Positions 21,575-62,500 of a DNA stretch of 64,000 nt are shown here, one piece after another. The notes under the pieces are model-generated. The model was given only the letters and a program-made list of their open reading frames with translations. It had not been told where the DNA came from and did no database searches. This stretch comes from Parietichytrium sp. I65-24A (lineage: Eukaryota; Sar; Bigyra; Thraustochytrida; Thraustochytriidae): positions 434,001-498,000 of the forward strand of contig BLSF01000025.1 in NCBI GenBank assembly GCA_012862575.1, in the 5' to 3' direction. Both the position numbers and the translations under genes were made by a program. Position 1 is the first letter of the stretch. Each line of letters begins with the position of its first letter.

Positions 21575-22644
21575 AATTCAATAAACCATTTGATTGATTG
21601 GAAAACGCAGTTAAATTAAATTAACGCAGTGGACGCCCGTCATTTTCCTCGCCACGTGGGTTTCGCATCACTTGCACTGAGAGAGAGAGAGCGGAAACTT
21701 CTGCTACTCAGGCTCAGTACAGTACTAACAGTTAGATCATTACTACCCGCTACCAACTGGCCTACTTGGATGGCGCAAGTCCACAATTTGCTTGCACGGT
21801 AAATGCTAACCAGCTCTTACTGCCGTAAACCCGCCTTACGCGTGCCCGCAGGGCGGAGTCTTAGTATTAGGGATAGTGGGCGGTGATGCGTAGGCTTATT
21901 GGGTAGTTGGTAGTAGAAGGTGCGAGTGCGAGCTGGAGATCTTTTGGACAGCACTGCACCCATGTCATTCTCTGCCAGTTCAACCTTAAGCGTATGCATT
22001 CATCTAGGCTATTCAATAATCTCTGCTTCTTTTAGGATGCGCCAACTCAGCCAGAGCGTTCCATCTTTCTTGATATTTTTTTTCAAACATTCATCTTAAT
22101 CTTAAAATCGAACAATAATAAAAAAACTTGTGTCCATGCCAAATCATCCAATACTTAAAGCTTACGCAGTGTGCATGATTTACTGATCCTGTATTTATTA
22201 AGAGTGATATTATCAAGAGGCGTTTCTTTCTCTCCTTCCCATTTCTACACACCTCTTCGGGCGGACGGAGATCGCCTGCATCTTCGTCTTCTGTGCTTCC
22301 AATTCTTCTTTCTTTACTGATAACTTAGAGATGGAGAAAGAAGTTGATGGTGATGAGGGCAGTGGGTGAGTGAGTGAGTGAGGGGCGTTTCTTTGTTTGC
22401 TTACCTCTTTCTCAATACCAAAAGGAGTGAATATTCTCATTTTCAAGATACTGTTTCGATTTGTGAAGAAAGTACCGGTACTGTTAGTTATTTAACTGCG
22501 ATCGAAGTTCCAATTCAGTTGGACGTGTGAAACCAAGCGCACCACTTGGGGCACTTGAGGGTGCAAGTTGAGCGCTTCTTCTTCGCTGTCAGCTCTGTGA
22601 AATTCTGTATCTCTCTGTACTATCTCTCTGTGAACATCTGTGAA

Positions 22645-22682
22645 CTATGTATAACTATGTATAACTATGTATAACTATGCAT
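22645..22682. repeat. TAACTATGTA decamer repeat
   Basis: About four tandem copies of a 10-base unit (ATGTATAACT), the last with one change, follow shorter TCTGTGAAC-type repeats. The array is local and non-coding. Confidence 0.8.
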
Positions 22683-23376
22683 AACGATGTGAGTCCTCGG
22701 AGTCATTGCGTTCCTCAAACGTATTCTTGTATGCACCACCCACGTGGGGTTTCTCTCGTTAAGCGAACCGGGTGTCGTGCTTATCCGTTACGATAGCAAT
22801 TTCCGAGTCCCAGATCCTAACCGGTTGCTTAACTGGACGGTTGGTGAGAGGTACTGATAAGACTGAGGTGTGATTCCAAGACATTCAACCATAATCAACC
22901 AATCAAATAAACAGACAAACAATCAATCAATCAAACAAACAAACAATTGATCTTGAATTCAACTGATAGACTATGAAAACAAAAATAATAATGACAAATA
23001 ATCAATCAAGCATTCAATCAAGCAATCAATCCACAATGTCCAATACAAAAGACAAAAGACAAAGAGACAGAGAGACTCTTCTCTTCTATTCGTGCATATC
23101 TATATTCATATCATGGACACATCCATCCTTGTCATCCTTGTGGCGAAAGCGTCGGGGCCAGAGGCGATCATGCACAGCGAGTAGAAGAGGTGTTGTGCTT
23201 GAGAGCCTCCACTTGCGCCCGAGCAGAGCCGCGCGCGGTAAATCGAGCCTGAGGTGTTCACGAAAGAGTTCATACAAAGTGCAGGGGCTGGTGGCAAGTG
23301 GCTCGCGACTCGCGACTGCCTGCTCCGGCCTGTCTCGGACTCAAATGACGCAAAGACGACGCAGGCGCACAGGTGT

Positions 23377-25566
23377 ATGAGCAAAATGCGGCGAAAAGAG
23401 CAAGATGCGCTCGCCCAAAAGCGGTTTGACCGCTTCTATCGAACTTTTACGAAAAGCAAGCCCGTGCAGAGGGCTCTCTCCGAAGGCTATTTGTCCACGA
23501 AGGAGCCTTTTCGAGCACTTCGGAGCTTGCGCAAGGATGTGGAGGAGCAGATACGCAAAGATGCCCTGCAAGCTGAGCAGAAGGCAGTGCAAGGGATTCC
23601 CGCCCAAATTGTCACTGTGGTCAGGCTTCAGTTGCCCAATGGTAAATGGCCAGAAGACTCGCCAGAATTGAGGCAGGCCATTGCTGGCCCATTTGGCATC
23701 CCTGACCCCCCGGAAGATATTCTCAAGTGGAAGTGGATCATCGCTTTGTGCCTGGCCTTTTTGAGAAGGTTTCCGGAGCATCATGCATTCACAGTCGGTG
23801 CGCACGACAAAGGGGCTTTCTACATCCCAGACGAGGTGCTTTTGGATGAAGCCAGGCGCAGACTGCCTCCTTTTGATATGACGTATGATGTCCCCGAGGA
23901 GCGCGTTCGCGAGGGTAAATGGAGAAGCCACTTGGACATGGAGATTGAGAAAAACGGATGCGTTGCGTTTCGGGACGAAGGCAATGGAAAAGAAAGTTTA
24001 ATCTGCTCTGCGGAGGAGAGCATACAAACTGCACAGGAGCGCGATGTGGAAGGCATTGAAAGAGTGGAGTGCATGCGGCAAAAAGACGTCGAAAAAGCCC
24101 TTTGGAGAGCCAATACCTTGCGGGAAATCGGAATGTCACGCCTCAGAAGCTCCACGGCTCTGGACTTTCGACATGGTCGACAAACTGCTATACTGAATGC
24201 AGCCAAGCCTCTGGAGCAAAGTTTACCTCTTTTCTCGGGTCTAGCGGATCAATTGGCTGCGGAAAATGACGCTCTCATGCGCGAAATTCTCACCACGTCC
24301 CATCCTGAGCACGAGGGCGATGGTGGCGAAAACAGTGTGACACTTGAAACACCGAAACATTCTCCAGAGCCGGTCAATCTTGAAGAACTGCAAATCGGCG
24401 ACGTCCGCGAGGAAACCAAAGTTGCGCTCCAAGAACTCTTACAGCGGGGCCCAGACCGCAAAGCCAAGGCTGAATTTATCGATGATCTCCTCGGCCAAGA
24501 AATATTACTCGCAGAAGAGTTTAAAAGAACACTTCGAAGCAAGGGCAAAGTTGAAACCAAGCAAGCTCTTGAGCACTGGGCCAAACCGCTCAGTGTTCAC
24601 TCAGAGGCAAGGAGGTTGAAAGAAGCAACGGCACCATACCCAAAGCCGGATTGGAACAGCGGCAAAACTGTTGCAAAACAAAATAGCGCTCGTATCGGAA
24701 CTAGAAAGAAGCGTGCGCAACGGCCTCTCCGTGAGCAAGAGCAAGCACTAGAGGCGGAGTCCGGGAGGCAAACTGATAGAATGGAGGACCCCCGTAAAGC
24801 TCTTCAAGTGAACGAGAAACTGTCATTTGCAGGTCGCCAAAGGGAAGCGCGACTAGCGATTGAGTGCGAGACGAAGCAAGAGCAAGTCGACCACTGCCTT
24901 CAAACACTATTACAACACCTGAATACGTATGACAAACTGCTCGACTCAATAAAAACCTCTCTGCCGACATGTGAAGAGGCATTCCGTACGGCCAAAACCC
25001 ACGTTCAGCGAAATCACGCCTTTGACACCATCACTGACGGTTTACTTCGCATTAGAAATGTTACCTGTAGCTTGGTGGAGGGGGTCCAAGCTTGGCGCGC
25101 AGCGCGAAATGAGTTGGAGCGCGTTAGACTGCCGGATAAGCACGAAATCGCTTTTCCGCTTTATTGGAATGGGCGCAACTTTCTTCTGGAGATTACTACT
25201 AATTTGGACTTTCTGAGTGCGTCTCAAGAATTGAAGCAGTGGTACGGGAAGGAAATGCCGCTCCTTCGTAATCCGTTTGTTCTTGCGGTTCCCGTGGAAA
25301 AAAGGCCCGAGTCACCGGTGAACGCAACGCGCAAGGTGATTGTAGACGGGCGACAAGTCACAGAGATTTCCAACGACCTCGCAGAAAAACGAAAGCTGCA
25401 AGTTGACCTATTCGAGGGCGCATGGGCTCAGATTGGATCTGGCCCGACATGGTGGCCCATTTGTACGCGTGACCAGTGGTTTCGGGTTCGAAACGCAGAG
25501 AAGCTCTTAATATCCGAATTGGCGGAGCAAAGAAGGTTTTCCGAACGAGTGAAACTTTGCCAATAG
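23377..25566 (+). CDS. Unrecognised 729-residue, coiled-coil-rich protein
   Basis: I do not recognise a family with confidence. The protein is highly charged and mostly helical, with long Lys/Glu/Arg-rich stretches (residues ~1-70, ~215-330, ~390-520) typical of coiled coils. One hydrophobic island at ~82-150 (LPNGKWPEDSPEL, then KWKWIIALCLAFLRRFPEHH) weakly recalls the Trp-rich C-terminal module of VIT/VWA5A and PARP4-type proteins, where an LQxxDGxW segment precedes WATALALAWL. No VIT or VWA domain is visible. There is no signal peptide. The frame is open 41 codons upstream without ATG. I start at the ATG at 23377 (MSKMRRKE), since the earlier codon is GTG; a first exon upstream cannot be excluded. 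It converges on the SYLF gene. Confidence 0.7.
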   Translation: MSKMRRKEQDALAQKRFDRFYRTFTKSKPVQRALSEGYLSTKEPFRALRSLRKDVEEQIRKDALQAEQKAVQGIPAQIVTVVRLQLPNGKWPEDSPELRQAIAGPFGIPDPPEDILKWKWIIALCLAFLRRFPEHHAFTVGAHDKGAFYIPDEVLLDEARRRLPPFDMTYDVPEERVREGKWRSHLDMEIEKNGCVAFRDEGNGKESLICSAEESIQTAQERDVEGIERVECMRQKDVEKALWRANTLREIGMSRLRSSTALDFRHGRQTAILNAAKPLEQSLPLFSGLADQLAAENDALMREILTTSHPEHEGDGGENSVTLETPKHSPEPVNLEELQIGDVREETKVALQELLQRGPDRKAKAEFIDDLLGQEILLAEEFKRTLRSKGKVETKQALEHWAKPLSVHSEARRLKEATAPYPKPDWNSGKTVAKQNSARIGTRKKRAQRPLREQEQALEAESGRQTDRMEDPRKALQVNEKLSFAGRQREARLAIECETKQEQVDHCLQTLLQHLNTYDKLLDSIKTSLPTCEEAFRTAKTHVQRNHAFDTITDGLLRIRNVTCSLVEGVQAWRAARNELERVRLPDKHEIAFPLYWNGRNFLLEITTNLDFLSASQELKQWYGKEMPLLRNPFVLAVPVEKRPESPVNATRKVIVDGRQVTEISNDLAEKRKLQVDLFEGAWAQIGSGPTWWPICTRDQWFRVRNAEKLLISELAEQRRFSERVKLCQ

Positions 25567-25827
25567 AAAACTCGAAAGCGCTTCCCGAGGCGCTCGAGAC
25601 TCTGGAATTTGTATTTACATCTCAAGACTTGTCCAGGACAGGCTCTTCGCAGATACAAAAAGCTTCTCTCACAGTCTCAATCAATCATCTCTTTGGAGGG
25701 GCGAAAACATCGAGGGAGAAGGTGTAGACGCGAGCGGTCCAGAATCAGACTAGACGATAATTCTTGTAATTACATTGAACTAAAGTTGGAAAGAAAGCAA
25801 ACAAGCCTACGAAGGAGATCAAGATTC

Positions 25828-26751
25828 TCAAATGTCCAAGCCGCTGCTTCCCGACCTCGCAAGAGCCACTGGAGCTGCTCCGCCTCCCCCGGCGGCTTCT
25901 CTAGAGCATGCAAATTTAAGCAGATCATACAGAGGCTTGGCAGCGTTTGGGCGCGGAACACTTCCCGACAGCAGATCCTTGGGATCATGATGCACGCCGT
26001 AAAATCGAAAGTTGACGTCCTTTCGCTGAGAAATGAGGGCCCCCTCTAGCGAAACGCCCGCAAAGAACCCTTTGGAGAACGAATAACTGAAACAAGGCGC
26101 CGCCCCGCAGTCCCCGAGGGTAAAGTTTGCCTCTCCTGTTCGCCCCATCGGCCCAGCTGCAACGGCGATTTGAGATCCAATTGAGATTTGGTTCCTGCCA
26201 GAGAACGCGTCCACCGCAGACTCTGTATTTAGCACTATCACGACGGTCGTGAGCTCTCCTCCGATTTGGGCACCCCACCCCACCCCGGCAAGGCCTACGG
26301 CGCTCGGCGCGGTCCACGAACCCTGTCTATCCTTGCCCACCACGATCCCAGTTCCGAAGCGGCCCGAGAAGAAAAACCCTGCTTTAAAGACCGTGAGGAA
26401 ACACAGCCCCTTTGCTTGTCGGAGAAGCATGGTCGGAATGTAGTCGTCCTTAACGAGCATTCTTTGCGTCTCATCGAAGAACAAGTTTTCCACCGATCTG
26501 CATGCTTTTGTAATCTCAACCGCCATAGAGAAGCTCAGCGGGCTTTGTAGAAAACGCGACTCTTCCATCACCTCCGCCTCCCTTTGCGAAATCGCCGCCT
26601 CGTCCGCGTCATCACGTTCATCCCAGGCCACATAGACAAACTCTTCTTCATCCTCGTTCTCCTCCCCTCCCACGAGAGCGCCGACGTCCACAAAGTCGGC
26701 ATCCAACAAGTTATCTCCATAGACCTCCTCGCCCTTGCTGCAGTCGCGCAT
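25828..26751 (-). CDS. SYLF (Ysc84-like) lipid/actin-binding protein
   Basis: A 307-residue protein whose residues ~105-285 form a SYLF domain: RQAKGLCFLTVFKAGFFFSG, then FGTGIVV, GSWTAPSAVGLAGVGWGAQIGG and a final SYSFSKGFFAGVSLEGALIS stretch. This follows the fold of yeast Ysc84/Lsb3 and human SH3YL1. In those proteins the domain binds phosphoinositides and actin at endocytic sites. Here no SH3, FYVE or PH partner domain follows; the last residues are Ala/Gly-rich. The N-terminal ~75 residues are strongly acidic (EENEDEEEF) and probably disordered. The ATG at 26751 is the first in frame; the frame is open for 22 further codons upstream without ATG. The 3' end lies only 261 bases from the end of the convergent + strand gene. 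Confidence 0.85.
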   Translation of the reverse strand: MRDCSKGEEVYGDNLLDADFVDVGALVGGEENEDEEEFVYVAWDERDDADEAAISQREAEVMEESRFLQSPLSFSMAVEITKACRSVENLFFDETQRMLVKDDYIPTMLLRQAKGLCFLTVFKAGFFFSGRFGTGIVVGKDRQGSWTAPSAVGLAGVGWGAQIGGELTTVVIVLNTESAVDAFSGRNQISIGSQIAVAAGPMGRTGEANFTLGDCGAAPCFSYSFSKGFFAGVSLEGALISQRKDVNFRFYGVHHDPKDLLSGSVPRPNAAKPLYDLLKFACSREAAGGGGAAPVALARSGSSGLDI

Positions 26752-27459
26752 GGCCGATCGCTCTTCCAAATGAGTTTCCCAAGCTCTCACCCCCGCAGTC
26801 CAAAGCCCAAAGCCCAAAGCCCCGACACGCCTGCAGAAGGCAGCTAGCTCTCTCGTGCACAGCGACCGCTCTACGCGTTCATCCCTCCGACAACAACGTC
26901 AACGCCAACGCCCAAAGAAGGATGGAATGGCCAAGTGCTTGCCGCCGCTTGCCAGTCGGTCGGTTAGAGCGAAGGCAGAGGACAGAAGAGAGAAGAGAGA
27001 AGAGAGCGCAAAGGACGTTGCTTCGAGGTTCTACATGGAGATGAGAGATGAGAGATGAGAGATGAGAGTGGGACGCCCTGCATGAGTGTGAGTAGCGTGA
27101 GTAGCGTTGAGCGATTATAGCTTTCGCTTAGGCAAGCTCAACGGAGCGAAGACTTGTCTTCGTTTGTCTACGAGTAGAAACGTGTGGAGATGGATAGATG
27201 GATAGATGGATAGATAGAGAGGGTCGTTGTTGCAGTGTGTCACGGTTGAAATGCAGGATGAAGATGATGAAGATGAAGACGAGGAGGAGATCGAGAGAAG
27301 AGGCGGGCCTTTGTCGTTGTTGTGTCGAAAGCTGCCGCGGGTGTTGTGGGTTAGTAGGAGCTTAGGTGAAAAGTGACAACGGGCAAAATTGGTTTAGTGT
27401 AGGCGAACAAACGGCCTTTCTAGAAAGAAACAGACGGCCGAATGCGAGGGTACTTTTAA
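26752..27459. other. Spacer with GA-type and GATG repeats
   Basis: The 708 bases hold the promoter and leader of the SYLF gene and the 3' flank of the NDK-like gene. Tandem GAGAAGA (26990-27005), GAGATGA (27037-27069), GATGGATA (27190-27222) and GATGAA (27260-27285) units give a purine-rich + strand. No gene is seen. Confidence 0.5.
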
Positions 27460-28458
27460 TTAGAGCTTGGATTTTTGGAGCTTTTTGATGGTTGCGGTGG
27501 AGTCCACATCTTCGAGCAAATCAAAAGCATTCCCGGTCTCCCCGTCGATTGTAACCGACTCGTTCGCCAGCAAACGGTCTAAAACTGATTTTGAGATTCC
27601 TGCCTCAAGGACAGCTTTGCCGAACGGGTCTTGTTCAACTTGTGCCTTGAGCCAGACGTTGCGCTCCCTCAAGCCTTCGATGGGGCCTGCGCTGGCGTGC
27701 ACGCCGTTTTTGCCCATGTCAGGCTTCTCGTTGAGTCCGAGAGATTCGTACTGGCTGAGGATCTTCGAGCGAAGCGAGCCGCTCGCTGCCTGAGTAGGGT
27801 CAGTCGCACCGATCACTTTCCCGCGAAAATCCTTCCAAGGGAGATCCTTCTCTGCAAACTTGACAGTGAAGTAGACTACTTTGGCGTCTGGACTCGTGTA
27901 CACCTGGCGCATCACGCCGTAAAACGCGTTGAGAACGAAGGCGTCCTCGCTCTCGATGAGCCCGACGTACGTACCTGGCGCAAGCTTCATCTTTGTCGAT
28001 TGCTTCCAAAGCCCGTCGATCTCATCGAAAGATAGGCCAGATTTCTCTTTGAGTTGTGCAAGGTTGAGAATCTTCCCACTCTCGATGAGACTATCCCAAG
28101 TTCCGGTCTTGAAAGTCTCCTCAAACTCCTTCTTCTTTTCGTCGGTGAGAGCCAGTTCGCTCGTGTCGGCCCTCATGGCAATCTTGGCGATATGCGCGTA
28201 ATGGTCATCGATGATCCCCTTCGCGTCAATGTCCTTTCCGGATATCTCTCCTTCAGTCAATATCTGCACCCCCTTTTCGGCCAAGAAAGACTTTACCAAC
28301 TTCTTCACGCTCTCGTTCACAGCATGCGGCTTGATGAACACCAACGCGTAGTTGAACACCTCTTCTTCAGACGGCTTTCCCGCCTCCACAGTGGCCTTCG
28401 CAGCGAGCTGTTTCTCCCCGCCAGGCCCGCCTTTCTCTGTGCCCACACAGCCTCCCAT
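27460..28458 (-). CDS. NDK-like protein with predicted N-terminal lipid anchor
   Basis: A 332-residue protein built on a nucleoside diphosphate kinase-like domain (residues ~33-265). It has ALVFIKPHAV (KPD in true NDKs), GATDPTQAASGSLRSK in place of GxTNPxxxxPGTIRG, and GVHASAGPIEGLRERNVWL, where the His aligns with the phospho-His of NDKs. An insertion of about 60 residues lies after the first strand. The active His, Lys and Arg are kept but several surrounding residues differ, so kinase activity is uncertain. The protein starts MGGCVG: Gly2 with Gly6, plus Cys4, fits N-myristoylation and palmitoylation, suggesting a membrane location. A helical tail follows the domain. The ATG at 28458 has A at -3 and G at +4; the frame is open upstream without ATG. 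Confidence 0.8.
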   Translation of the reverse strand: MGGCVGTEKGGPGGEKQLAAKATVEAGKPSEEEVFNYALVFIKPHAVNESVKKLVKSFLAEKGVQILTEGEISGKDIDAKGIIDDHYAHIAKIAMRADTSELALTDEKKKEFEETFKTGTWDSLIESGKILNLAQLKEKSGLSFDEIDGLWKQSTKMKLAPGTYVGLIESEDAFVLNAFYGVMRQVYTSPDAKVVYFTVKFAEKDLPWKDFRGKVIGATDPTQAASGSLRSKILSQYESLGLNEKPDMGKNGVHASAGPIEGLRERNVWLKAQVEQDPFGKAVLEAGISKSVLDRLLANESVTIDGETGNAFDLLEDVDSTATIKKLQKSKL

Positions 28459-33656: not shown

Positions 33657-35561
33657 TGTGTAGTATATATATATATATATNNNNNNNNNNNNNNNNNNNN
33701 NNNNNNNNNNNNNNNNNNNNNNNNNNNNNNNNNNNNNNNNNNNNNNNNNNNNNNNNNNNNNNNNNNNNNNNNNNNNNNNNNNNNNNNNNNNNNNNNNNNN
33801 NNNNNNNNNNNNNNATATATATATATATATATATATATATACTGTGTTCGAATATATATATATATATATATCCGCGCCTACTCGAGGTCCGCGCGCCTTT
33901 TCTTCCCCAAATCCCCGCAGTAAGTGAAGGATCTTTATGATACGCGTGGAGTACTCGCAGTCGTTTTGCGATGTACTTTTCCTCCCACGAAAGATGGAAA
34001 TCGGAAAAGGAAAAGATGGTATGGTGTGTTGTGGTGTGGGAATGTGTTCTCCTGTGTTCTCTTTGTTCCTCCTCTCTCTCTTCCTTCCTCTTCTCGATGC
34101 GCTGCGGACCGCGCTCCCTTGTCCCCAAGGATCGGACCGTGTACGATATCGGCCTTTTCTCCTTCCTTCTCCTCTTCGCTTCTTCCTCCTCACACTTTGG
34201 ACTTGTTGGAAGGAAGAAGACTGGCTGGTCAATTGAACGCTCTCCTCGCTAAGGGTTGCTAGCTTTTAGCATAGAGAAACTGCCAAAAGGTGCCTCTCTG
34301 CCACCAGACGCAGGCGCGCTAGGATACTCGATACGTGCGTCATACACCGGGTCGTGTATAGACTCTGCGCGTCCGTCCTTCTCCTGCTGAGGCCGCGGGA
34401 CTCCTTCTTTCTCCCTGGTGAGGCGCTAATGTATACTATAGAAGTGACACAACTGGCGCGAGCGAGTGTCCTCGAGGACCCCGGCTGACGTTGCGGGCAG
34501 GGCAGGTGGACCAGAGGCCGTAGGACTTGTTATCGAGGCGGTAGGCGAACTGCGAGGTTTCTTTTAAAATTGGCATTAATTGGCCCCCCCGGGGCCAGGA
34601 AGCGTTACGTGAAAGTGCCCTCCGTTACGCACAAAATGTTGCTGGGGGTCGATCTCGCTACCCAGAGCGGCATTCCCACCATACCTACTCCTACCGCCCT
34701 CCCTTAATGCAAACGCTAGCCAAGCGGCTGGTCTCTATACGCACCACCTAGTCTTTCCCGCTCTGGTTAACCTTCACGACTCTCAGCCGGCGTCCTACCA
34801 CCCACTCTAACAGCAAAAAGAATAACAAACAAACAAAGAAAAAAGAAAGGAAAAATTAAATATCCCTAGCCAACGCTACTGCAAACCTAACCGGCTCGAC
34901 CCACACCCGCTGTGAGGAGGGCGCCCGTCGAGGACACTTGGTCGGCAAATACATACGCATAGCTGCGTGTAGTGTGGAGCTAGGAGGCGCCGTAGGGTCC
35001 TTTGGAACTGGTACTAGCTGCCTCTAAGAAGGGGTTGCGCAGCGCGAGGGAACGAAGAGGAGGAGCAGTCAACCGCGAACGAAGGAGGAAGAGAGGAAAT
35101 ATATATATATATATATATATATAAGAGAGAGAGAGAGAGCGGCTTGTGTCCTCGCTGCAGCTGAGGGAAAAAGAGAGAGAGAGAGAGCAAATTCGGGAAA
35201 TTGGAAATTTGGAAAATTGGAAAATTGCAAGTGATTTGTTTTCGACTGCGAGAGGAGGGTCAACAAGTTGTTGATTGATGACTTGGTTTCCTTGATCTTA
35301 TATATATATATATCTTCAAAGGATTGAATACGCACCGACGGTTGGTTCCTTCATTGACGCTCGGTCGTCTGCTAAAGAAAGAGGGCTGAAGACAGCAGTG
35401 GAATGAGAGATTGAGGCGCTGGTGATTTTGTAGACGTTGAGGCGTGATTTTGTTTCGTTTGGGCGCCAAGGATCTGGGACGCTGGGCTTATATCAGATTC
35501 TGTTTGTCTTGTCTTTCGGGCGACACGTCCTGGGGCGCGTGAGATTTCTGGTGTTTGCAAG
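33469..35561. other. Divergent region with assembly gap and CTA/TAG-rich island
   Basis: The region holds the promoters of the phosphatase (-) and the CHD-like gene (+). It contains TA runs on both sides of an N gap (33630-33870), a CTA/TAG-rich island (34260-34800) with a palindromic GGCCCCCCGGGGCC-like stretch near 34583, an A-rich run (34815-34860), TA and GA runs (35098-35190), GGAAATT/GGAAAATT units (35197-35229) and a short TA run (35299-35314). No gene is supported; open frames that run through the Ns are meaningless. Confidence 0.5.
33681..33814. other. Assembly gap (134 N) in a TA microsatellite
   Basis: The run of N is flanked on both sides by long TA dinucleotide runs, each interrupted once by ACTGTGT (near 33655 and 33841). 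The sequence is therefore incomplete here and the true repeat length unknown. Confidence 0.98.
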
Positions 35562-49574: not shown

Positions 49575-50834
49575 GCGATCTCTTTCTCTCTCGGTATCCC
49601 GGTATCTGTCCCGCTGTTCTTCTTTTCAGGCTCTTCCGCAGGCGTATCTCGACAATCTCGACCTCTGCTTGGAGCTGACGATATGCCAGTACCGCAAAGG
49701 CAAAAGCAGATCTTTTTCACTATACACAAATTTACTATCTTTAGCACATGTTTTGTTTCGGCCAGACCTATGTGACGATTTCTTCCAAACTCTCCCTCGC
49801 TCTCAAGTAGAAAAGATTTTTTCGGGCACCGAATGGCCTGCTTTGATTGAGCTTGCTGTTTGCGGTCTGGGCTTGATATCTCTGATGAGCGGCCAATGAC
49901 GCCTCAGATTGCTTGGCACTTGAGGTAGGGCGTCGCTGAGCGATAAGACGGAAGGTTAGTTTTTTAGGTTTCTTAATTTTAAAGCGATGATTTGTCTTGC
50001 ACATTCCTGTGGTTTCAGTGTTCGACTCAAGCTGTCCAGATGAAAAGTTATACGTTAATTTGGTGTTCTATTTCTTTTTCATCGAACAAAGCCAAGATCA
50101 ATAAAGAATCGCTCAATCTGAGGCGATCATGATTGTTTCGTAGAGAGAGGTACTGAGTACTGGTACATTCATCACAACACGTCAATCGCTTAGTCCTTTT
50201 ACATAAGCGAACTCTAGCCAAGAAGCCAAACTGGCCACAAAATCTATTAGCGGACCAAGGAGAATTACGACCTCCCACACCCAACCAAACCAAGCAAGCG
50301 TGAGCGCAACGAACAAACGCCGGTAATATATTGGCGTCCATAACCATCTCTACCCCGTCCTCTACCACCCAAACTAACAGAAGCACATAGCAACCATCTA
50401 CCCACACCCACCGCTCCTACGCCACCCTACCCAAATTCCGTAGCACACTATCACACCGCAACCAGCCTAACCCCGCGCCTGCGTGTTAACAACCAGTAAT
50501 AACACCTACCTCCAACTTAAGGTATTTTAAAGAAGAACCGCAACCACTCACACTCACTCACTCACACCTTCCAAAGTGCGCAGAGTAAGCGATAACTCAT
50601 TACACAGAAAGACAGAAAGACAGAAAGAGTGCGCGCAGTAACGGCCGCTCGCTGGGCCGCGGAACCGGAACCCGGAACCCAGAAGTCACAAGTCAGGGCC
50701 TGGAACCGAAGAGCGAGGACCGGCGGCGGGTTCTTGCGCTCGTCAGTAGCTCGTGATCGTCGGCGAGTTGTTATTACGTTGAGTTGGTTTTGGACATTGG
50801 CTGATTTGGAAAATCTGCGACTTTAGTGCGGAAA
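49575..50834. other. Intergenic region with a C/A-skewed tract
   Basis: No gene is supported in these 1.26 kb. A GTACT palindrome lies at 50149-50166. From about 50255 to 50560 the + strand is rich in C and A and poor in G and T. The right end (50560-50834) is the promoter and leader of the PsuG/PfkB gene, with GAAAGACA units at 50607-50625. Confidence 0.45.
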
Positions 50835-52973
50835 ATGAGCTTGCGCGGGAGCTTGAGGGGATGGACGAGGGGCGCAGTGCTGTGGAAATGCGGTAATTCG
50901 AATGGAAGTCGCACACTGGGGACATCGGCAAATGGATTGTATTCACAGAAGCGTGAAAAGCATGATTTGAGGTTCCAGTACAGCGGCGAAGTGGCGGCTG
51001 CGCTGAGGAACAATGGCGCGATTGTCGCGCTCGAGTCGACCATCATCTCCCACGGAATGCCGTACCCGCAGAACCTTCAATGCGCGATGGAGGTGGAGGA
51101 CATTGTCAGGGAAAACGGAGCCACGCCTGCGACCATTGCGATCCTCGACGGCATCCCGCACATCGGACTTGAAGCTGCTGACATCGAGCGACTCGCAAGT
51201 ATGCCGTCCGATAAAGTGCGGAAATGCTCTCGCAGAGACCTTCCCGTCGCCATTTCGCAAGGCGAGTTTGGCGCTACGACGGTAGCCAGCACCATGATCC
51301 TTGCCAAGAGGGCGGGAATCAATGTCTTTGCGACCGGTGGCATCGGCGGGGTCCATAGAGGTGCCTTTGACGACTCTCTGGGACCACCGAGCTTGGACGT
51401 GAGCGCAGATTTGACCGAGCTTGGTCGAACAAACATGGCTGTCGTCTGCGCCGGAATCAAGTCCATTCTGGACATCCCGCGCACCCTGGAGTACCTCGAA
51501 ACCCAGGGCGTTTCGGTCATTACACTTGGGCAGAAGCGCTTCCCCTCCTTCTTCACCAGAGACTCTGGGGTTGACTCGCCATTTAGCGCTGAGAATGTTC
51601 ACGACATTGCCTCCATCTTGCATGCCAGCTCTTCCGTTCTGGAACTGGACTCCTCTGTGCTGGTGGCGGTCCCAAACCCAGACCCTATGGATGCGTCCCT
51701 GCATGACCAAGTCGTGGCACAGGCGCTCAAAGAGGCAGCTGCGCAAGGAATTACCGGAAAGCGAGCCACCCCCTTTCTGTTACAGCGTCTTGTAGAGTTG
51801 ACTGGAGGTTCCTCGCTGGAGTCAAACATCGCGCTGGTGAAGAACAATGCTCAGGTGGGCGCCAAGCTCGCTGTTCACTTTCAGCGCATTCGAAGCCAAG
51901 GCGTCGTCCTCAAAGGCTCTGAAAGCCCGAGAGCTGCCTTGCAACAGCACCACCAACCACGCAAGCTTCTTGTGGTTGGCGGCGCCGCGATCGATATCAT
52001 GGCTACACCACGCGAAGGCCCCGCATTTCACACTTCCAACCCTGGCAAGATTTACGAAGCCATGGGAGGAGTGGGGCGTAACATGGCCGAGTGCGTTGTA
52101 AATCTGCAAAAGTGGATCAAATCGAACGACAAGGGCTCTTACTCCCCCATGGAAGTGAGTATTCTGACAGCTGTCGGAAACGATTCTCGCGGCCGCAGCA
52201 TCCTGGACAACTGTCAAAGCCTTGGTATTGACACTTCCGCCGTCCGCATGTTTGAGGACGAGCGAACATCTACGTACTGCTCGATCACTGACGTGAGGGG
52301 CAATTTGTTGGTGTCCATCGCCGATATGGACATCTTTGACCTCCTCGCCTCCACGCAACTCCAAGAAGGGTTGGACGGCCATGAGCTTTTTGTGGTGGAC
52401 GGAAATATGCCGACTGCGATGGTGGAGAGAGTCGCAGGACTCGGTGCCAAATGCGGCGCAGCAGTCATCTTTGAGCCTGTCTCGGTTCCCAAAGCCCTGC
52501 GCGGCGTAGACGTGCTCAAGCAGTTTCACATTATCACCCCAAACCGGGACGAGTGCACCAGCATTGCTGAGAGCGTGAAGGGTTCTAAGCGCTATGCCGG
52601 CGGTTCCCCCGAGGAAGATGCGAGACTGGTGGCCATGGAGATGCACGTTCCCGGCCAGACCAAATACGTTTTGGTGACGATGGGCGAGGAGGGTGTCCTG
52701 GAGGTGGCGTCCCATGCAGACGGCTCCATTTCGGAGGTCATGCATCCTGCTACGCCGGTGCCCCCGGAGGTCATTGTTAGCACAAACGGCGCGGGAGACA
52801 CCTTTGCAGGGGCGCTCGCCTGGAGTCTTGTTCAACGCCGAACTGCCCCGACAATCCTCGAGGAGCTAAACGCGGGACTCAATTCGCACATCCGTCTGGC
52901 GATGGAGGCCTCTTCTGGAGCTCTGCTTACACAAGACGCGGTCCCGAAGGAGTTCCCGAAAGTGTCCATATAA
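50835..52973 (+). CDS. Bifunctional pseudouridine-5'-phosphate glycosidase / PfkB pseudouridine kinase
   Basis: A 712-residue fusion of the two enzymes that break down pseudouridine from RNA turnover. Residues ~50-345 are a PsuG (indigoidine synthase A-like) glycosidase: GAIVALESTIISHGMPYPQN, GATTVASTMILAKRAGIN, FATGGIGGVHRG and CAGIKSILDIPRTLEYLE, with the Lys expected in the active site. It cleaves the C-C glycosidic bond to give uracil and ribose 5-phosphate. Residues ~377-712 are a PfkB kinase: LVVGGAAIDIMATP, a TPNRDECT segment, and the anion hole with catalytic Asp in TNGAGDTFAGALA (~650). It would phosphorylate pseudouridine. The same fusion occurs in several animals. Residues 1-40 (MSLRGSLRGWTRGAVLW) are Arg/Ser-rich without acids, a likely mitochondrial presequence. 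The ATG at 50835 has A at -3. Confidence 0.93.
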   Translation: MSLRGSLRGWTRGAVLWKCGNSNGSRTLGTSANGLYSQKREKHDLRFQYSGEVAAALRNNGAIVALESTIISHGMPYPQNLQCAMEVEDIVRENGATPATIAILDGIPHIGLEAADIERLASMPSDKVRKCSRRDLPVAISQGEFGATTVASTMILAKRAGINVFATGGIGGVHRGAFDDSLGPPSLDVSADLTELGRTNMAVVCAGIKSILDIPRTLEYLETQGVSVITLGQKRFPSFFTRDSGVDSPFSAENVHDIASILHASSSVLELDSSVLVAVPNPDPMDASLHDQVVAQALKEAAAQGITGKRATPFLLQRLVELTGGSSLESNIALVKNNAQVGAKLAVHFQRIRSQGVVLKGSESPRAALQQHHQPRKLLVVGGAAIDIMATPREGPAFHTSNPGKIYEAMGGVGRNMAECVVNLQKWIKSNDKGSYSPMEVSILTAVGNDSRGRSILDNCQSLGIDTSAVRMFEDERTSTYCSITDVRGNLLVSIADMDIFDLLASTQLQEGLDGHELFVVDGNMPTAMVERVAGLGAKCGAAVIFEPVSVPKALRGVDVLKQFHIITPNRDECTSIAESVKGSKRYAGGSPEEDARLVAMEMHVPGQTKYVLVTMGEEGVLEVASHADGSISEVMHPATPVPPEVIVSTNGAGDTFAGALAWSLVQRRTAPTILEELNAGLNSHIRLAMEASSGALLTQDAVPKEFPKVSI

Positions 52974-54430: not shown

Positions 54431-54462
54431 GAAAGTGAAAGAAAGAAAGAAAGAAAGCAAGA

Positions 54463-56091
54463 ATGACGCGGCAACACAAGATGCATAAGATGGCGAGGGC
54501 CACGACCGTCATGCAGCGGCGTCTGTTTGGCGCATTGACGAGCAAACCTTACCAGTTCGTCGCCCGTCCTTGGGAGCTGCGCAAGACGGACACAGTGGAC
54601 GCTTCGGACGGCATGGGCAGTTGGATCCAGGTGCACGCGAAGGGCGGCGAGGTTCTGCGCGTGAACCCTCGCGAGAACGACGAGATCAACGAGGAGTGGA
54701 TCCACGACAAGACGCGCTTCTCGTACGACGGGCTCAAGCGCCAGCGGCTCACCACGCCGCTCGTGCGCGGACCGGACGGCGCATGGGACGACAACATGTC
54801 CGGCGACTGGCGCGCCGCGTTCAAAACCGTGGCGCAGGCCGCCGCCACGTCGCGGGCCAAACGCGGCAAGGTGGACATTCGCGCGGTGTGCGGCAGCGGC
54901 ATCGACTTGTACTCGGCGGTGGCGTTTACGGACTTGGTGTACTCGCTGGACGGGCCCAACGTGGAGAGCCTGGGATCGCGCGGCAGCACGCTGGGCAGCG
55001 ACTTCCCGGCGCAGTACAGGTTCGGCACCGGCATCCTGGGCCTGGAGCAGGCAGATCTGTGCTTGCTTGTGGGAACCAACCTGCCGTACGAGGCGCCGCT
55101 GATCCAGGCGCGCCTGCGCAAGATGTTTCTGCGCGACTCGGTGGAGATCATGTCCGTGGGCCTCCCTCTGAACCTCACCTTCCCTGTCGCGCAGGCTGGC
55201 AATACTGCTGAAGTGCTGGCCAGCATCGCGGACGGCAAGCACCCGATCGCCGACAAGCTGCGCGCGGCCAAGCGTCCGGCCATCATCGTGGGCTCGCAGG
55301 TCATGGACCGCGAGGACGGCATGGCGGTCGCTGCTGCGCTCGAGTCCATCGCGGACCAGAGTGGTACCGTGCGCCAGTACAGCGAAGAAGGCGAGCTCGT
55401 CTGGAACGGTCTCAACATGCTGCACCACGCCGCCAACGACTGCGGCCTCCTGGAGCTTGGCCGCACCGTGCCCTTCTCGCAGACCGCCGACGACGGATCC
55501 GCCAAGGCCCCCGCCGACGTGCTCTACCTCTTCGACGTTGCCGCTCGCGATCTCCCAGTGTCAGTGGATGAGCTCATCGGCGAGAACACCTTTGTTATCG
55601 TGCAGGGCCACCACGGAGACGAGATCACCAGCCGCGCCGATGTGGTGCTTCCGGGAGGAGCCTTCACCGAGAAGGGAGGAGTGTATGTAAACTTTGAGGG
55701 CCGCCCGCAGAAGGCGCTCAACGCCGTCACACCGCCTTTGGACGCTCGGGAGGATTGGAAGATCTTCCGTGCCCTCTCTGAGGTCCTCGGCGGAGATATT
55801 TTGCCATACAGCACCGAGCCGGAGGTGCAGGCCCGCCTCGCACAGTTGCTGCCTTCCCTGACCCACCGCAACCGCGTCACTAAGGCTTCCACCCCTGTGC
55901 AGCTCCTCGGAAAGGAGGCCACCAAGCTTGGTGCCACTCTTGCGGGAAGCACCAAGATCCAACCAACCCCTTTCCGCCCTGCAGTATATGACTTTTACAT
56001 GGACGGCAATGCCATCGCTGGCTCATCCCAGATCATGGCCAAGTGCTCCCGCGAAGCCCCGAAGAGTAATTTTGTCGAGTTCAACTTTTAA
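54463..56091 (+). CDS. NDUFS1: Complex I 75-kDa subunit, molybdopterin-type domain only
   Basis: A 542-residue protein equal to the C-terminal two thirds of NDUFS1/Nad11. Alignment starts at residue ~24 with GALTSKPYQFVARPWELRKT, then GEVLRVNPRENDEINEEWI and DKTRFSYDGLKRQRLTTPL, just where this domain starts in full-length NDUFS1 (about residue 245 of the human protein). It continues to the family end: GHHGDEITSRADVVLPGGAF, TEKGGVYVNFEGRPQKAL. The first ~220 residues of the usual subunit, with the 2Fe-2S and 4Fe-4S ligands, are absent. Residues 1-23 (MTRQHKMHKMARATTVMQRR) are basic and lack acids, a likely mitochondrial presequence. The FeS half is probably encoded elsewhere. The ATG at 54463 is acceptable; the one at 54490 has a stronger context. 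An AATAAA lies 37 bases after the stop. Confidence 0.93.
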   Translation: MTRQHKMHKMARATTVMQRRLFGALTSKPYQFVARPWELRKTDTVDASDGMGSWIQVHAKGGEVLRVNPRENDEINEEWIHDKTRFSYDGLKRQRLTTPLVRGPDGAWDDNMSGDWRAAFKTVAQAAATSRAKRGKVDIRAVCGSGIDLYSAVAFTDLVYSLDGPNVESLGSRGSTLGSDFPAQYRFGTGILGLEQADLCLLVGTNLPYEAPLIQARLRKMFLRDSVEIMSVGLPLNLTFPVAQAGNTAEVLASIADGKHPIADKLRAAKRPAIIVGSQVMDREDGMAVAAALESIADQSGTVRQYSEEGELVWNGLNMLHHAANDCGLLELGRTVPFSQTADDGSAKAPADVLYLFDVAARDLPVSVDELIGENTFVIVQGHHGDEITSRADVVLPGGAFTEKGGVYVNFEGRPQKALNAVTPPLDAREDWKIFRALSEVLGGDILPYSTEPEVQARLAQLLPSLTHRNRVTKASTPVQLLGKEATKLGATLAGSTKIQPTPFRPAVYDFYMDGNAIAGSSQIMAKCSREAPKSNFVEFNF

Positions 56092-56827: not shown

Positions 56828-57508
56828 ATGGATCTGCGAGAGGTGCTGCAGCTGGTGGACAGCCTGACGCCTTCGCCACTGGAAAGCTGGTCCAACAAGG
56901 TCGCCGTGCCGTGCATGGCAGCGTGCGGGCTGTTCGCGGTGTACGTTGTTGCGGAGATAGTGAGCTGCGGCGTGCAGCGGCGGGTGCGATGGTCGCGGGC
57001 GGTCGTGTGGTGGTCGGCTTTGGCGCTGTTCCTGCTGAGGGCGGTGCTGGTGGAGAGGTTCGTGAGCGGCTGGCTGTACCTGATGCAGTTCGGGGAGACG
57101 TTCCCGTTTGCGACCACCCGCGTCAAAGTCACCGGGGCGCTCTTGGCGCAGATGATCGTGGCATTCTTGCATGTCTTTCACGCCGCCAGCCTGCGCCTGC
57201 GCAAAGCCGTGTTCGCCGCTTCCGTGCTGTCCATGGCCGTGGACACTGTGATCCTGGTCAAGCTGGACTTTATTGTGCAGTGCACGTATAGCGGCGCCTG
57301 CAGGGACGAGATTGGCGCAAGAGCGGAGTGGAACCTCGTCTTGTACATGGCCGCTATGTTTCTGCAAGTTTGGATCATGCAGATGAGTTGCTATAACATA
57401 AGTTTTTTCAGCTCAAAGGAAGAGTTCCCGCTGGAGTCGACGCCATACGAAACCATGTTGTTGCGGAGAGGGGCAGCGCTCGTGGACTTTGACGGCAAGC
57501 ATACCTAA
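56828..57508 (+). CDS. Multispanning membrane protein of unknown function
   Basis: A 226-residue integral membrane protein that I do not recognise. Five likely helices are visible: ~27-48 (VAVPCMAACGLFAVYVVAEI), ~58-75 (VVWWSALALFLLRAVLV), ~98-118 (GALLAQMIVAFLHVFHAA), ~123-145 (KAVFAASVLSMAVDTVILVK) and ~168-188 (WNLVLYMAAMFLQVWIMQM). The loop between the fourth and fifth has two Cys (CTYSGAC), possibly a disulphide. The tail has an FFSSKEEFPLESTPYETM stretch with a YETM that could act as a sorting signal. There is no cleavable signal peptide. The ATG at 56828 has G at -3 and G at +4. It follows the complex I gene on the same strand and converges on the CXXC gene. Confidence 0.75.
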   Translation: MDLREVLQLVDSLTPSPLESWSNKVAVPCMAACGLFAVYVVAEIVSCGVQRRVRWSRAVVWWSALALFLLRAVLVERFVSGWLYLMQFGETFPFATTRVKVTGALLAQMIVAFLHVFHAASLRLRKAVFAASVLSMAVDTVILVKLDFIVQCTYSGACRDEIGARAEWNLVLYMAAMFLQVWIMQMSCYNISFFSSKEEFPLESTPYETMLLRRGAALVDFDGKHT

Positions 57509-58049: not shown

Positions 58050-59543
58050 TTACGGCGACGTAAAAGCCCGCTTCAGCATCTCCAAAGCCTTGTCTTCAGT
58101 CATTAAAGCTTTGCGCTGGCTCTTCAGAAAACGCTGCCGTTTCTCAATAATGTCAACGGGAACTACAGCAATGTCTTGCGATAAAGACGACTCTGCAGAG
58201 ATGCCGTTGAGCGCTTTCACAATGACGTCCTGGCTTTTCGTGTCGAAGACCGTCTGCGCAAATAAAATGAGCTGCTCGAGGCAGGGCAGCCTATTCTCGC
58301 AACTTCGCTTGCGCTTCTTCTTGTGCAGACAGTTTGTGCAGCTTCCGCACGCCTTGTGATTGCAAGTCTTGCAGTTGTTGCAACGTTTTCGGGTGCTGAT
58401 GGTAGCCCCTATGTTGACCACTCCAGAGCTGGACGCGCTTGCGACGCTGTCAGACCTTTTCAAGCCAGAAATCTCTTCATCAGATACTGAGTTGGAAGCC
58501 GAAGTATTGGAAATGTGCGAGGTTGTGCTCCCAGACCTCTCGTAGCGGCCCTTGCCGCCGGTGCTACTGCTCTTGCCATTGCCGCTTGCTAGTCCTTGTC
58601 TTTTTTTGAAAGGAGGGGACGCGCTTTCGCGCTGGCGAAAGTCAGTAATCTCTGCAGAGAGAGAATGTTTTTTGGACATGTGCTTGCCTCCGGAGGCGGA
58701 ATTGTCCGTGGAAGCCATGCGGTCACCAAGAACGCTGTTCAGGGACTCTAGCATTGCTTGCGAGTTTTGCCCTGACAGCAAGCTAGCTGCAAAGTTGAGT
58801 GCGCCGTGCCCATCTTGCCCAACGCCACCCAGCGAGGAGGATTTTCCCATGCTTCCCATGAGGAGGTTCGGAAACATGCTCTGCAAGTCAGCAGAGAGCG
58901 AGGAAGATGATCCCGGGCCAGAGCCGGAAGGTGGCGGGGGCAGAGGCAAGCTAAACTGTCCGTTAGTGCCAAGCGGAGACGCGGCTTTGTTTGAGCCAGC
59001 GGAGGCGTTTTGTGCGTTCAAGTGCTGCTGCAAGAGCGAGCTCAACGACATCATGTTCGGGGGTTGGTCTTGTTGCTCTGTCTTAACCCGGAACTCACGT
59101 GACTTGTTCCCGAAAGCGTTGCCCTCTCCAGACGATTCTCTGTTGCTGAGAGTGTTTCCGTGGACGCCCATGTTTTCGCTGCTCGAGCTTCCTCCCCAGG
59201 AAGCCGCAGTTTTGTTCGAGCCCAGCTTTTGCATGAGCTCGTGGAGTTGAGAATTGTCCACCATATTGCCGAAATTCTGAAAGGCGGGATCCATCCGGCC
59301 GGCCAGCAAAGAGCTCAGGGAGTTTCCCGTTTTGCCCCCCATACTTCCACTGCCATCAGAGTGGCTATTTGGTTCTGCGTTCTCGTTGGAGGATGCATTG
59401 TGCTGATGTTGTTGGTTTTGATTGGATAAACCAAGGAGGAGCGCAAAAGCGTTGGAGTCGCCCATCTGTTCGCCGGCTCTCTTTGAACTGTTGTTACTCT
59501 TGTGGTTGTTATATATGGAGGGCTCAAGATGTTTGTTCGCCAT
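58050..59543 (-). CDS. CXXC-like zinc-finger protein
   Basis: A 497-residue, probably nuclear protein. Residues 1-300 are Ser/Asn/Gly/Leu-rich and disordered, with repeats of [18 protein letters not shown] type that recall activation segments. A Ser-rich stretch (~335-375) leads to a compact Cys cluster at ~381-424: [20 protein letters not shown], then a basic KKKRKR run and CENRLPC. The eight Cys follow the order of a CXXC finger (CxxCxxC, CGxCxxC, then two C-terminal Cys), but the KFGG loop between the halves is replaced by a short basic run. CXXC fingers bind unmethylated CpG. The last ~75 residues form a helical tail ([20 protein letters not shown]). The ATG at 59543 is the first in frame; the frame is open upstream without ATG. 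Confidence 0.75.
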
Positions 59544-62500
59544 CAAAACGAAAGCAACAAGGCTTGAGGCTCGCTCAGTGAGAGCTCGGAGCAAGGAAAC
59601 TCAAGAGAATGGCTCCCGAGTTGGCCCAAATATGTGTACACGATTCGTCGGTCAAGAAGAGTGAATAGTTTGTGTGATTTGCGAGAGAGTCCCTGGCCCG
59701 GCCCAGCCGTCTCTATTCTTTATGCGACACGGACGCGAAAGAGTCTTTATGCAACTGCTGCCTGATGTGAATTCGCTAAGCCTCTCTGTTGAGCAAGAAA
59801 ACAGCGATTCGACCTCGTTCACGGACCACAGCACGTGCCGCTAGAAGAGATCTACAACAAGAGAAGTGAAATTTAGCTACCCACCAGGTCAGAACCCGCT
59901 ACAGCTCCAACTCAAGCGCCACGATCGATATCAGCCAAGGCTCCTCTAATTCCGACTATTCACCTCGGCCAACCAAAAGCCAAGACCGCCGCGACGGAGA
60001 ACTCGTTTTCCTCGGACAGGCACCAAACCAGCGACAGGCACCAGCTTGAACAGCCTACACCACGGCTTCCACAGATGCCACGACCCCGAAATAGTCAACC
60101 AGTCCCACAATTTGCATAAGCAGAATCGCTACCAACTTGAACGCCGATATCCCCGAGCGGTCCCCAACTTTAGCCACGCAAGATGTACACACACCCGCCA
60201 GGTCTTGTCCACAACCCGACGTATCTATCCTCGATGCCAGCACTCCCTTCGCTTCGCAAGTAAACAAACTATTCCACACCACGCAACCGAGTCCTCGACT
60301 GCCTCCACAGTCCCAGCGCTCCCCACGACACGCAGCGCGACCCCAAATATGCACGCGCACACGCCGCCGTATGCAGCCGTTCCTCAATGCTCAAGTACGC
60401 ACGTATGTATTCCGCTGCGCTGAGTATCTGAGTATATATATATACGCGCCGCTTTCGATCGTCTCTTCAGTTTCTTCAGTCTTTTTCCGAGTTCCGTCTT
60501 TTCTGTCCTTTCCGAGTCTTCCTCGGAGTCTCCACTAAGGTATATCTATCAAAACTCGATATGCTCCATGTATATCGATATATATATATGCTAATGTATG
60601 TATACATATGTGCATATATGCTTATAGGATGAGAAATTGTACGTGAATAATATATATGCACTTCGTGTACCGGTAGTACTAGAATACTTATATATGAGCT
60701 TACACCGTTCAACTTTGAGCCGCAACCGAGGCAACGTGACTCCTACTGTAAACCTTAATTATCCCTACATCGCCACTTGAAAACAGCCCATGCCATAGCA
60801 GTCACACAGTCCTTCATAGGACGGGACTCCGAACAACACCAAAACGCGCATAAGGGTAGGCTAGCAGCCACTAAGGGCTCCCGAAAGGGGCGACGGGATG
60901 TGAGGGACTTATTCTGGGGCACTCGAGAGGAGAGAGAAGGAGAGGAGTTTCCCCGAGAGGGGGACGCCTATGAGAGACAGTCCCTTCCGTTGCCTGCGAG
61001 CAGAGCCTGAGGTAGCCACCGACTCCATAAAACAATAAGAATCGTCCATAAGTTAACCTCTCTATAAGTTCTCACTCGACCGTTCCGCAATCCTACCGGC
61101 TTAGGCACAGCTAGTTGATGCATTGATGAATAGGAAGCGTCCCCTAGAAAGCATTTCGGAACTCCCGCCACAATCCGTCGGTGCCAGCGCTAGCGACTGT
61201 TAGAATTTCAGTTAGGATTTGGCAGGTTGAATGATGAATGGAATTTGGATGAGTCGGGCGAGTTGGGAGTTGGAACTGTGGGTTCGAGTACTGGTACTGA
61301 GTAACAACAGAGAGCGCTTATTTTTGCAGTCAGAGTTCAGAATTAGAATTAACTGTAAATTAGTTCAGAAGTTCAGAAAAGGAATTATTTCAATTTTAAA
61401 AAAATTAAAATTCAATTTGAGTGAAGAGCAGTCACATTAGAAGTACGTGTTCATCCTCACTTTGTCGACTCTGCCGCTACGTCTGCACGAGTGCTCCGTG
61501 CCGTGGCTGGAAAGCTAGAGATTGTCTTGAGAAAAAAGATAAAATAAAATAAAAAGAAACGTTCGCTGTTTAGAAACCAATTCTAATCTCGATTAAAGAA
61601 GAGCGCAATGCAAAGAAGATGGATGTTCATCGAATTGAGAAGGAGAACACACATGTGTTTTTCAAATCAAAATAATCAATCCAAAATGCAAGACCTCTGT
61701 CACTTCCCATCCCAAACAGTCTCCCAGTCAAGGACGAAACAACCGGGGATATCGACAACGCAAGACATGTGTGTTGTCGTTGTTGTAGTTTCATTCATGA
61801 ACACGCTGTTTCATCAGTCGCACACTGTCGTGTTATTTTCTTCAATGAATGACTGTGAAGGAAAGCAATCAATCAATCAATCAATCAAATGATTCATAAC
61901 AATTCAGTCTTTATCACTTCATCGGAGCGGAGAGGTTTTCAAAGTTTCGCCATCTTTGCTCGACCTCAGGTAATACTCACATAGATATCGCTAATCTCTC
62001 TCGCCTTTTGCGGTTGGGATCGCCGGAGAACCGATCCCATGAACAAACCATAGAAGACTGATTATTTGCTACCACCTGTCTAAACACTTGGGTCCTATAC
62101 GAGTACTATTAGATATCTTAGGAAAACCGGACAATGCCAGCGCTCTTGCCTCCTTCTGTTCGCACACTGTAGTGAAACCCTCTAAATGTACTCTAGTCTG
62201 TCCAGTTCCCGTTTTGACTGCTGTAGCCGCATCTGCCGCCTCACGCCCTTCTCTCTCTGTCTCTCTATCCCTCTGTCTCCACCGTCTCCTCTCCAGGACA
62301 AACTCATGCACACTCGGAATAATTGCCCATTTTGTTTCTGAATTCTGTAGTTTGTAAAAGTTCACTCCGAGCCCTTTTCTCGGAGCATCTGACTTGCACT
62401 TTTAACTGAATTCTGTACATCAATCCCTCAGAAACTAATATTCTTATAAGTAGCATTCGTCTTCGCATAAGGTTGTCTTTGATCGTCATGCAGCTACTCG

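Follow-up and report, generated by a model that had tools for sequence, protein, structure and literature searches.

A nuclear gene for the molybdopterin-type half of NDUFS1/Nad11 in the thraustochytrid Parietichytrium sp. I65-24A

Does a nuclear locus of Parietichytrium sp. I65-24A encode only part of the complex I subunit NDUFS1 (Nad11), and if so, where did the subunit break and where is the remainder encoded? The locus was analysed within a stretch of 64,000 nucleotides (contig BLSF01000025.1, here C25, positions 434,001 to 498,000 of the forward strand), referred to below as the window. The first-pass annotation had read it as a nuclear gene for the molybdopterin-type half of a split subunit, with the iron-sulfur (FeS) half left in mitochondrial DNA.

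A single open frame with the C-terminal domains of NDUFS1

The features of the gene are collected in Table 1. An in-frame TGA lies eight codons ahead of the ATG, so the frame cannot run further upstream without splicing. Pfam analysis of the 542-residue protein placed PF22151, PF00384 and PF09326 above their cut-offs, and the FeS modules PF13510, PF10588 and PF22117 were absent from it; this part of NDUFS1 is present as an open reading frame of its own, with the FeS modules not in cis. The protein has four scattered cysteines and no CxxC, and PF22151, the 4Fe-4S domain kept in the nuclear half, is nevertheless cysteine-free here.

In a search of solved structures the best match to an NDUFS1 chain had an E value of 1.3e-106, so chance resemblance is of no concern. 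Homology to full-length NDUFS1 extends from residues 21-23 of the query, in the best matches, to about residues 531-537, and the part covered is the C-terminal two-thirds of NDUFS1; a 695-residue full-length homologue (40% identity) aligned from its residue 199, at GALTSKPY. The AlphaFold2 model, built on an 18-sequence alignment, is of middling confidence (mean pLDDT 69.7, pTM 0.73, residues 1-33 under 50). When compared with the PDB using Foldseek, the predicted fold resembled NDUFS1 chains with E values down to 6.9e-41. By title, the best 50 matches were all complex I or supercomplex entries, with mitochondrial or alphaproteobacterial structures at ranks 1-47 and mycobacterial and Thermus structures at ranks 48-50.

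The gene lies on a nuclear contig, the GC content of the window being 51% compared with 32% for C141, the contig that carries mitochondrial genes (N excluded). With its open reading frame, its three Pfam domains and its place on C25, the earlier reading of a nuclear gene for this half alone was upheld. Likewise, the earlier statement that ferredoxin-type cysteine motifs are missing agrees both with the cysteine content of the protein and with a six-frame HMM scan of the whole window (filters off), in which nothing better than E=1.3 was found for the FeS half.

Other open frames were noted in the vicinity. The upstream neighbour (window 50826-52973, +) joins PF04227, which we take to be of the pseudouridine-5'-phosphate glycosidase type, and a pfkB kinase (PF00294) in one 715-residue frame. 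A 226-residue ORF (window 56828-57508, +) is hydrophobic by eye and had no Pfam match at E 0.01, and a 514-residue protein on the opposite strand (window 58050-59594, -) looks, by eye, mostly low-complexity and has a weak match, below the cut-off, to the CXXC zinc finger PF02008.

Table 1. Features of the NDUFS1/Nad11 locus, in window coordinates
Feature	Position	Strand	Basis
Gene for the molybdopterin-type (C-terminal) half of NDUFS1/Nad11, 542 aa, single open frame	54463..56091	+	ORF, Pfam, solved-structure matches
In-frame stop TGA, 5' of the ATG	54436..54438	+	No same-frame FeS exon
22-residue basic leader, probable mitochondrial presequence	54463..54528	+	6 K/R, 0 D/E
R-L-F immediately 5' of GALT, presumed R-3 type presequence cleavage motif	54520..54528	+	R-x-[FL] in 7/9 leaders
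PF22151 Fer4_NDSU1 domain, zero Cys	54577..54729 (residues 39-89)	+	Pfam and Cys count
PF00384 molybdopterin-oxidoreductase-like domain	54745..55785 (residues 95-441)	+	E 8e-72 and 3e-72
PF09326 NADH dehydrogenase G C-terminal domain	55921..56046 (residues 487-528)	+	Pfam, E 4.6e-07

The boundary, the leader and the shared clade

After the leader the protein continues with GALTSKPYQF, and in all four full-length proteins aligned C-P-V directly precedes GALT. The cysteine of this C-P-V is, we presume, a ligand of cluster N4, and the split therefore lies two residues past the last FeS ligand. The clean start at the domain junction proposed in the first-pass annotation was thus borne out, with GALTSKPY directly behind the leader and homology beginning at the same place; the leader, then put at about 23 residues, comes to 22 by our count.

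The best thirteen database matches (P0001-P0013) were also molybdopterin-half-only proteins (481-596 residues, 43-61% identity), and the first full-length NDUFS1 in the match list was P0014 (41% identity). Named among the thirteen were Hondaea fermentalgiana (P0005) and Aplanochytrium sp. PBS07 (P0012), both Labyrinthulomycetes (Bigyra), while for most of the relatives the label labyrinthulomycete rests on the tree and on mitochondrial traits. In a tree of 28 rows, the window protein and the thirteen relatives formed one group (14 of the 28 rows, support 100/100), such that the window half was placed with the halves of Hondaea and Aplanochytrium and separately from full-length NDUFS1; a six-row subgroup (window, P0001-P0004 and P0010) had support of 100/99. 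Because the half-protein is common to relatives from other sources, it is not an assembly accident.

These relatives also bear on the reading that the gene is not split at all, the FeS part being supplied by an exon further upstream or by trans-splicing, or the frame being a second, truncated copy of a gene whose full-length version was left unassembled. The assembly does have gaps (for example, a 134-N run at window 33681-33814) and our genome search works exon by exon, so that short exons could be missed. However, the GALT boundary was reached in 11 of the 13 relatives and the FeS part in none, P0001 and P0011 are labelled as complete ORFs of transcripts, and no FeS exon was detected in the window or in the genome. 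We therefore regard this reading as very improbable. Misreading of TGA (Trp) as the cause of the split was ruled out, as the gene is in nuclear DNA and has a leader.

Leaders of 18-67 residues were present in eight of the thirteen relatives. P0010 and P0012 start downstream of GALT. P0005, P0006 and P0009 have no leader, their first residue lying one or two positions ahead of GALT, perhaps through truncation of the gene models. Directly before GALT, seven of the nine leaders (window plus eight relatives; exceptions P0011 and P0013) carry R-x-[FL], a pattern that we take to be the R-3 presequence motif. Among 20,000 shuffles, the leaders with the motif averaged 0.26 of nine and never exceeded 4, bearing in mind that the relatives are not independent and that two leaders were trimmed. 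Given the motif at this position, removal of the presequence should produce a mature N-terminus at the domain boundary, and comparison of the leaders makes a presequence cut point conserved at this boundary probable. In a hydrophobic-moment test the amphipathicity of the window leader was not above that of its shuffles (19% reached the same value), nor was that of four relatives' leaders (15-76%).

Searches for the FeS half

Throughout the 42.5-Mb gapped assembly, PF00384 gave one match, which is this gene. Neither a second molybdopterin-like domain nor a full-length NDUFS1, whose presence the first-pass annotation had named as speaking against a split, was found by this search. PF10588 and PF13510 had no match at E 1e-3 in the whole assembly (the same searches were positive in 9 and 11 of 14 control genomes, respectively), and PF22117 gave three matches, all below the cut-off (best E 0.14; positive in 10 of 14 control genomes and above the cut-off in seven). 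A 206-residue FeS half used as query, which had no positive control of its own, returned nothing at E 10 in the assembly, and a DNA pattern for CDQGGEC, a motif found in 298 of the 300 proteins P0014-P0313, had zero matches there. NDUFV1 (PF01512), a core subunit of complex I with a nuclear gene, served as positive control and was found on contig C16.

Protein searches with the FeS half (best 120 of 8,000 scored proteins each) had no labyrinthulomycete among the matches listed, the named ones coming from bacteria, animals, plants, green and red algae and a glaucophyte ('Gloeoc'). The FeS half was not seen in any sequence identified here as labyrinthulomycete.

Some short database entries deserve separate mention. 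Of the 193 proteins P0121-P0313, 44 have 240 residues or fewer, and 12 of these (P0173, P0175, P0249, P0251, P0263, P0275, P0283, P0285, P0300, P0301, P0307 and P0311; 212-216 residues) stop 13 residues past CPVG, immediately before the place of a conserved Trp in full-length proteins. Judged from this position, the 12 'FeS-only' entries are probably nad11 sequences cut where TGA was read as a stop. FeS-only proteins with leaders (P0157, P0162, P0264, P0273 and P0282; 278-327 residues), three of the five in red algal records (Timspurckia, Rhodosorus) and P0162 labelled 'Gloeoc...', suggest further splits of NDUFS1. Caution is needed with both kinds of entry: those listed as '75 kDa subunit' in labyrinthulomycetes can be half-proteins, and outside this group a misread genetic code seems to lie behind some of the short 'FeS-only' ones.

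The mitochondrial contig C141 (39,303 bases) carries cox1, both rRNAs, 21 tRNAs, nad7, nad9, tatC, atp6 and ribosomal proteins. Its two PF00361 genes are taken here as nad2 and nad5; like cob, cox2, cox3, nad3, nad6, atp8 and atp9, they were identified by eye from the translations. Its rRNAs, tRNAs and named genes are all on one strand, and a stretch at 35.9-36.7 kb is tandemly repeated. TTA codons are lacking from six of the seven genes tested, each of which has 15-39 TTG, and the sole TTA is codon 383 of 394 in cob, 11 codons ahead of the TAA; such near-absence is expected if TTA is a stop. In Thraustochytrium aureum, TTA is described as a stop (PMC5203790), and the mtDNA as having one-strand polarity and one large repetitive region (PMC5910586). 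The traits of C141 fit labyrinthulomycete mtDNA. Viral contigs searched with Nad7 for a related mitogenome yielded no relative.

Nothing credible was found for the FeS half on C141, either by HMM searches with and without filters or by tblastn with E values up to 100, on a contig that contains a run of 5,116 N (22452-27567, between nad9/trnV and cox1). C141 is also a poor scaffold, with seven single-N joins, most of them beside duplicated sequence. Across the whole assembly PF00146 (nad1) had no match, PF00420 (nad4L) had two matches below the cut-off (best E 0.056), and, for nad4, PF00361 yielded one fragment only beyond the nad2 and nad5 reads, with none on C141. Because of the N run, and because nad1, nad4 and nad4L are missing too, the absence of the FeS half from C141 is uninformative. 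By their lengths, these three genes and a 0.7-kb FeS-only nad11 would fit in 5.1 kb, and most likely the run holds all four. Of the first-pass proposal of an FeS half left in mitochondrial DNA, the split and the identity of the moved half stood, while the FeS-only nad11 itself was not found on this gapped contig. Separately, a 78-codon piece on contig C12 (40069-40302), nad4-like by eye and in surroundings of 48% GC, may be a NUMT.

For comparison with a related mitogenome it is useful that full-length nad11 measures about 2.1 kb. The mitogenome of Schizochytrium TIO1101 contains 10 nad genes, none of its coding genes being longer than nad5 at 1,968 bp (PMC7799850). As nad1-7, 4L and 9 make nine, and as no gene exceeds 1,968 bp, the tenth is probably a nad11 shorter than full length; the source text names neither nad11 nor nad2. 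In a comparative study, nad11 was present in every stramenopile mitogenome compared (PMC5910586).

That the FeS half was not seen on C141 would equally follow if it, too, had been transferred to the nucleus and lay in an unassembled or intron-broken stretch. FeS-only proteins with leaders do exist in other algae (e.g. P0282 of Rhodosorus, on a 1.69-Mb contig), and Euglenozoa offer a precedent in the nuclear FeS part of NDUFS1 described in PMC10884005 and PMC12699882. However, no FeS exon rose above threshold in 42.5 Mb while NDUFV1 turned up at once, and the N run of C141 accounts for the four missing nad genes together. We consider nuclear coding of both halves unlikely; were it so, a stramenopile would have an NDUFS1 in two pieces, both encoded in the nucleus. 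Loss of the FeS half, or its replacement by an unrelated protein in an altered complex I, is extremely improbable: it draws on nothing but absence in a gapped assembly, whereas C141 and C16 carry other genes of complex I, and the FeS half bears clusters on the electron path.

A model for the fission and its relation to known nad11 splits

Taken together, we think it highly probable that nad11 was broken in a labyrinthulomycete ancestor, that its C-terminal half is now nuclear and imported, and that the FeS half is in mtDNA. The account starts from direct observations, namely the gene with its boundary and its leader motif, the clade shared with the relatives, and the failure to detect another NDUFS1 C-terminal half. 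In this model, the mitochondrial gene would have been broken just past the last cysteine of the FeS part, between CPV and GALTSKPY, and the molybdopterin-like half would have moved from mtDNA to the nucleus and acquired a presequence. After synthesis in the cytosol and import, matrix proteases would cleave between R-x-F and G, leaving a mature half that begins at the domain boundary (GALTSKPY) and that would dock on the separately made FeS half, so that NDUFS1 would be reconstituted in the arm of complex I. The FeS half, which presumably carries clusters N1b, N4 and N5, would most likely still be encoded in mtDNA, within the N run of C141. A more far-reaching version, in which all labyrinthulomycetes descend from one nad11 fission that fell immediately after the last N4 cysteine, with the presequence cut held at that residue by selection since then, seems to us to fall a little short of an even chance. 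If true, the imported half would have no extra N-terminal residues at its interface with the FeS half. Nuclear coding of both halves would be a bolder version still, and a less likely one.

This kind of split is already known, since nad11 splits have been published for brown algae, Nannochloropsis, diatoms and 'some' Bigyra. In the literature nad11 is described as divided between two ORFs in most stramenopiles, Chrysophyceae and Oomycetes being the exceptions (PMC6723347), with one fragment nuclear in several groups, including some Bigyra (PMC7194472). Both directions of transfer are on record (PMC3999925, PMC3423374, PMC7194472), in keeping with the earlier remark that split nad11 genes occur in some stramenopiles. 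In the open-licence literature we found no published account of the labyrinthulomycete molybdopterin half, its single clade or its cut motif; Sevcikova et al. 2016, cited by a review for 'some' Bigyra, may well describe the half.

The brown algae Pylaiella littoralis and Ectocarpus siliculosus show the same direction of transfer as the Parietichytrium gene, with the FeS half in mtDNA and the molybdopterin half nuclear (PMC3999925, PMC3423374), only the nuclear half having been seen in Parietichytrium. Their molybdopterin half is described as highly divergent (PMC3423374), whereas that of Parietichytrium is about 40-45% identical to full-length NDUFS1. In diatoms (33 of 39 Bacillariophyceae mtDNAs in PMC8987724) and dinotoms, nad11a and nad11b likewise separate at the FeS/molybdopterin domain boundary (PMC3423374, PMC8987724), but both halves stay in mtDNA, as stated for some of these species in PMC3423374. 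Nannochloropsis also has a split with one half nuclear, but in reverse, the FeS half being nuclear and the molybdopterin half in mtDNA (PMC3999925). Cafileria marina shares a split nad11 within Bigyra (PMC6723347, PMC7194472), but its 4Fe-4S domain remains on the N-terminal side, a situation described as unique (PMC6723347); in Parietichytrium this domain is on the molybdopterin side, which is the usual arrangement.

Outside stramenopiles, two polypeptides of Euglena gracilis (NDUFS1A and NDUFS1B) form NDUFS1 in a solved complex I, and so a two-piece NDUFS1 can work (PMC10884005). Unlike the present case, the Euglena split is further downstream, inside subdomain II, and both pieces are described as nuclear-encoded, the second being regarded in PMC12699882 as a newly recruited protein.

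Close counterparts are the Hondaea protein, listed as a 75 kDa subunit, and the Aplanochytrium protein with its start downstream of GALT, both of the same architecture and clade. To the published splits, the present analysis adds a single clade across the sampled labyrinthulomycetes and, from alignment of the leaders, a conserved probable cut motif at the boundary. As a nuclear example of the C-terminal half of split Nad11 in labyrinthulomycetes the locus is clear: its boundary is precise and its maturation site probable. For the repeated fissions of nad11 in stramenopiles it supplies detail from a lineage of Bigyra, and it suggests that, when a gene is transferred in pieces, the break can follow the edge of a cofactor domain with single-residue precision.
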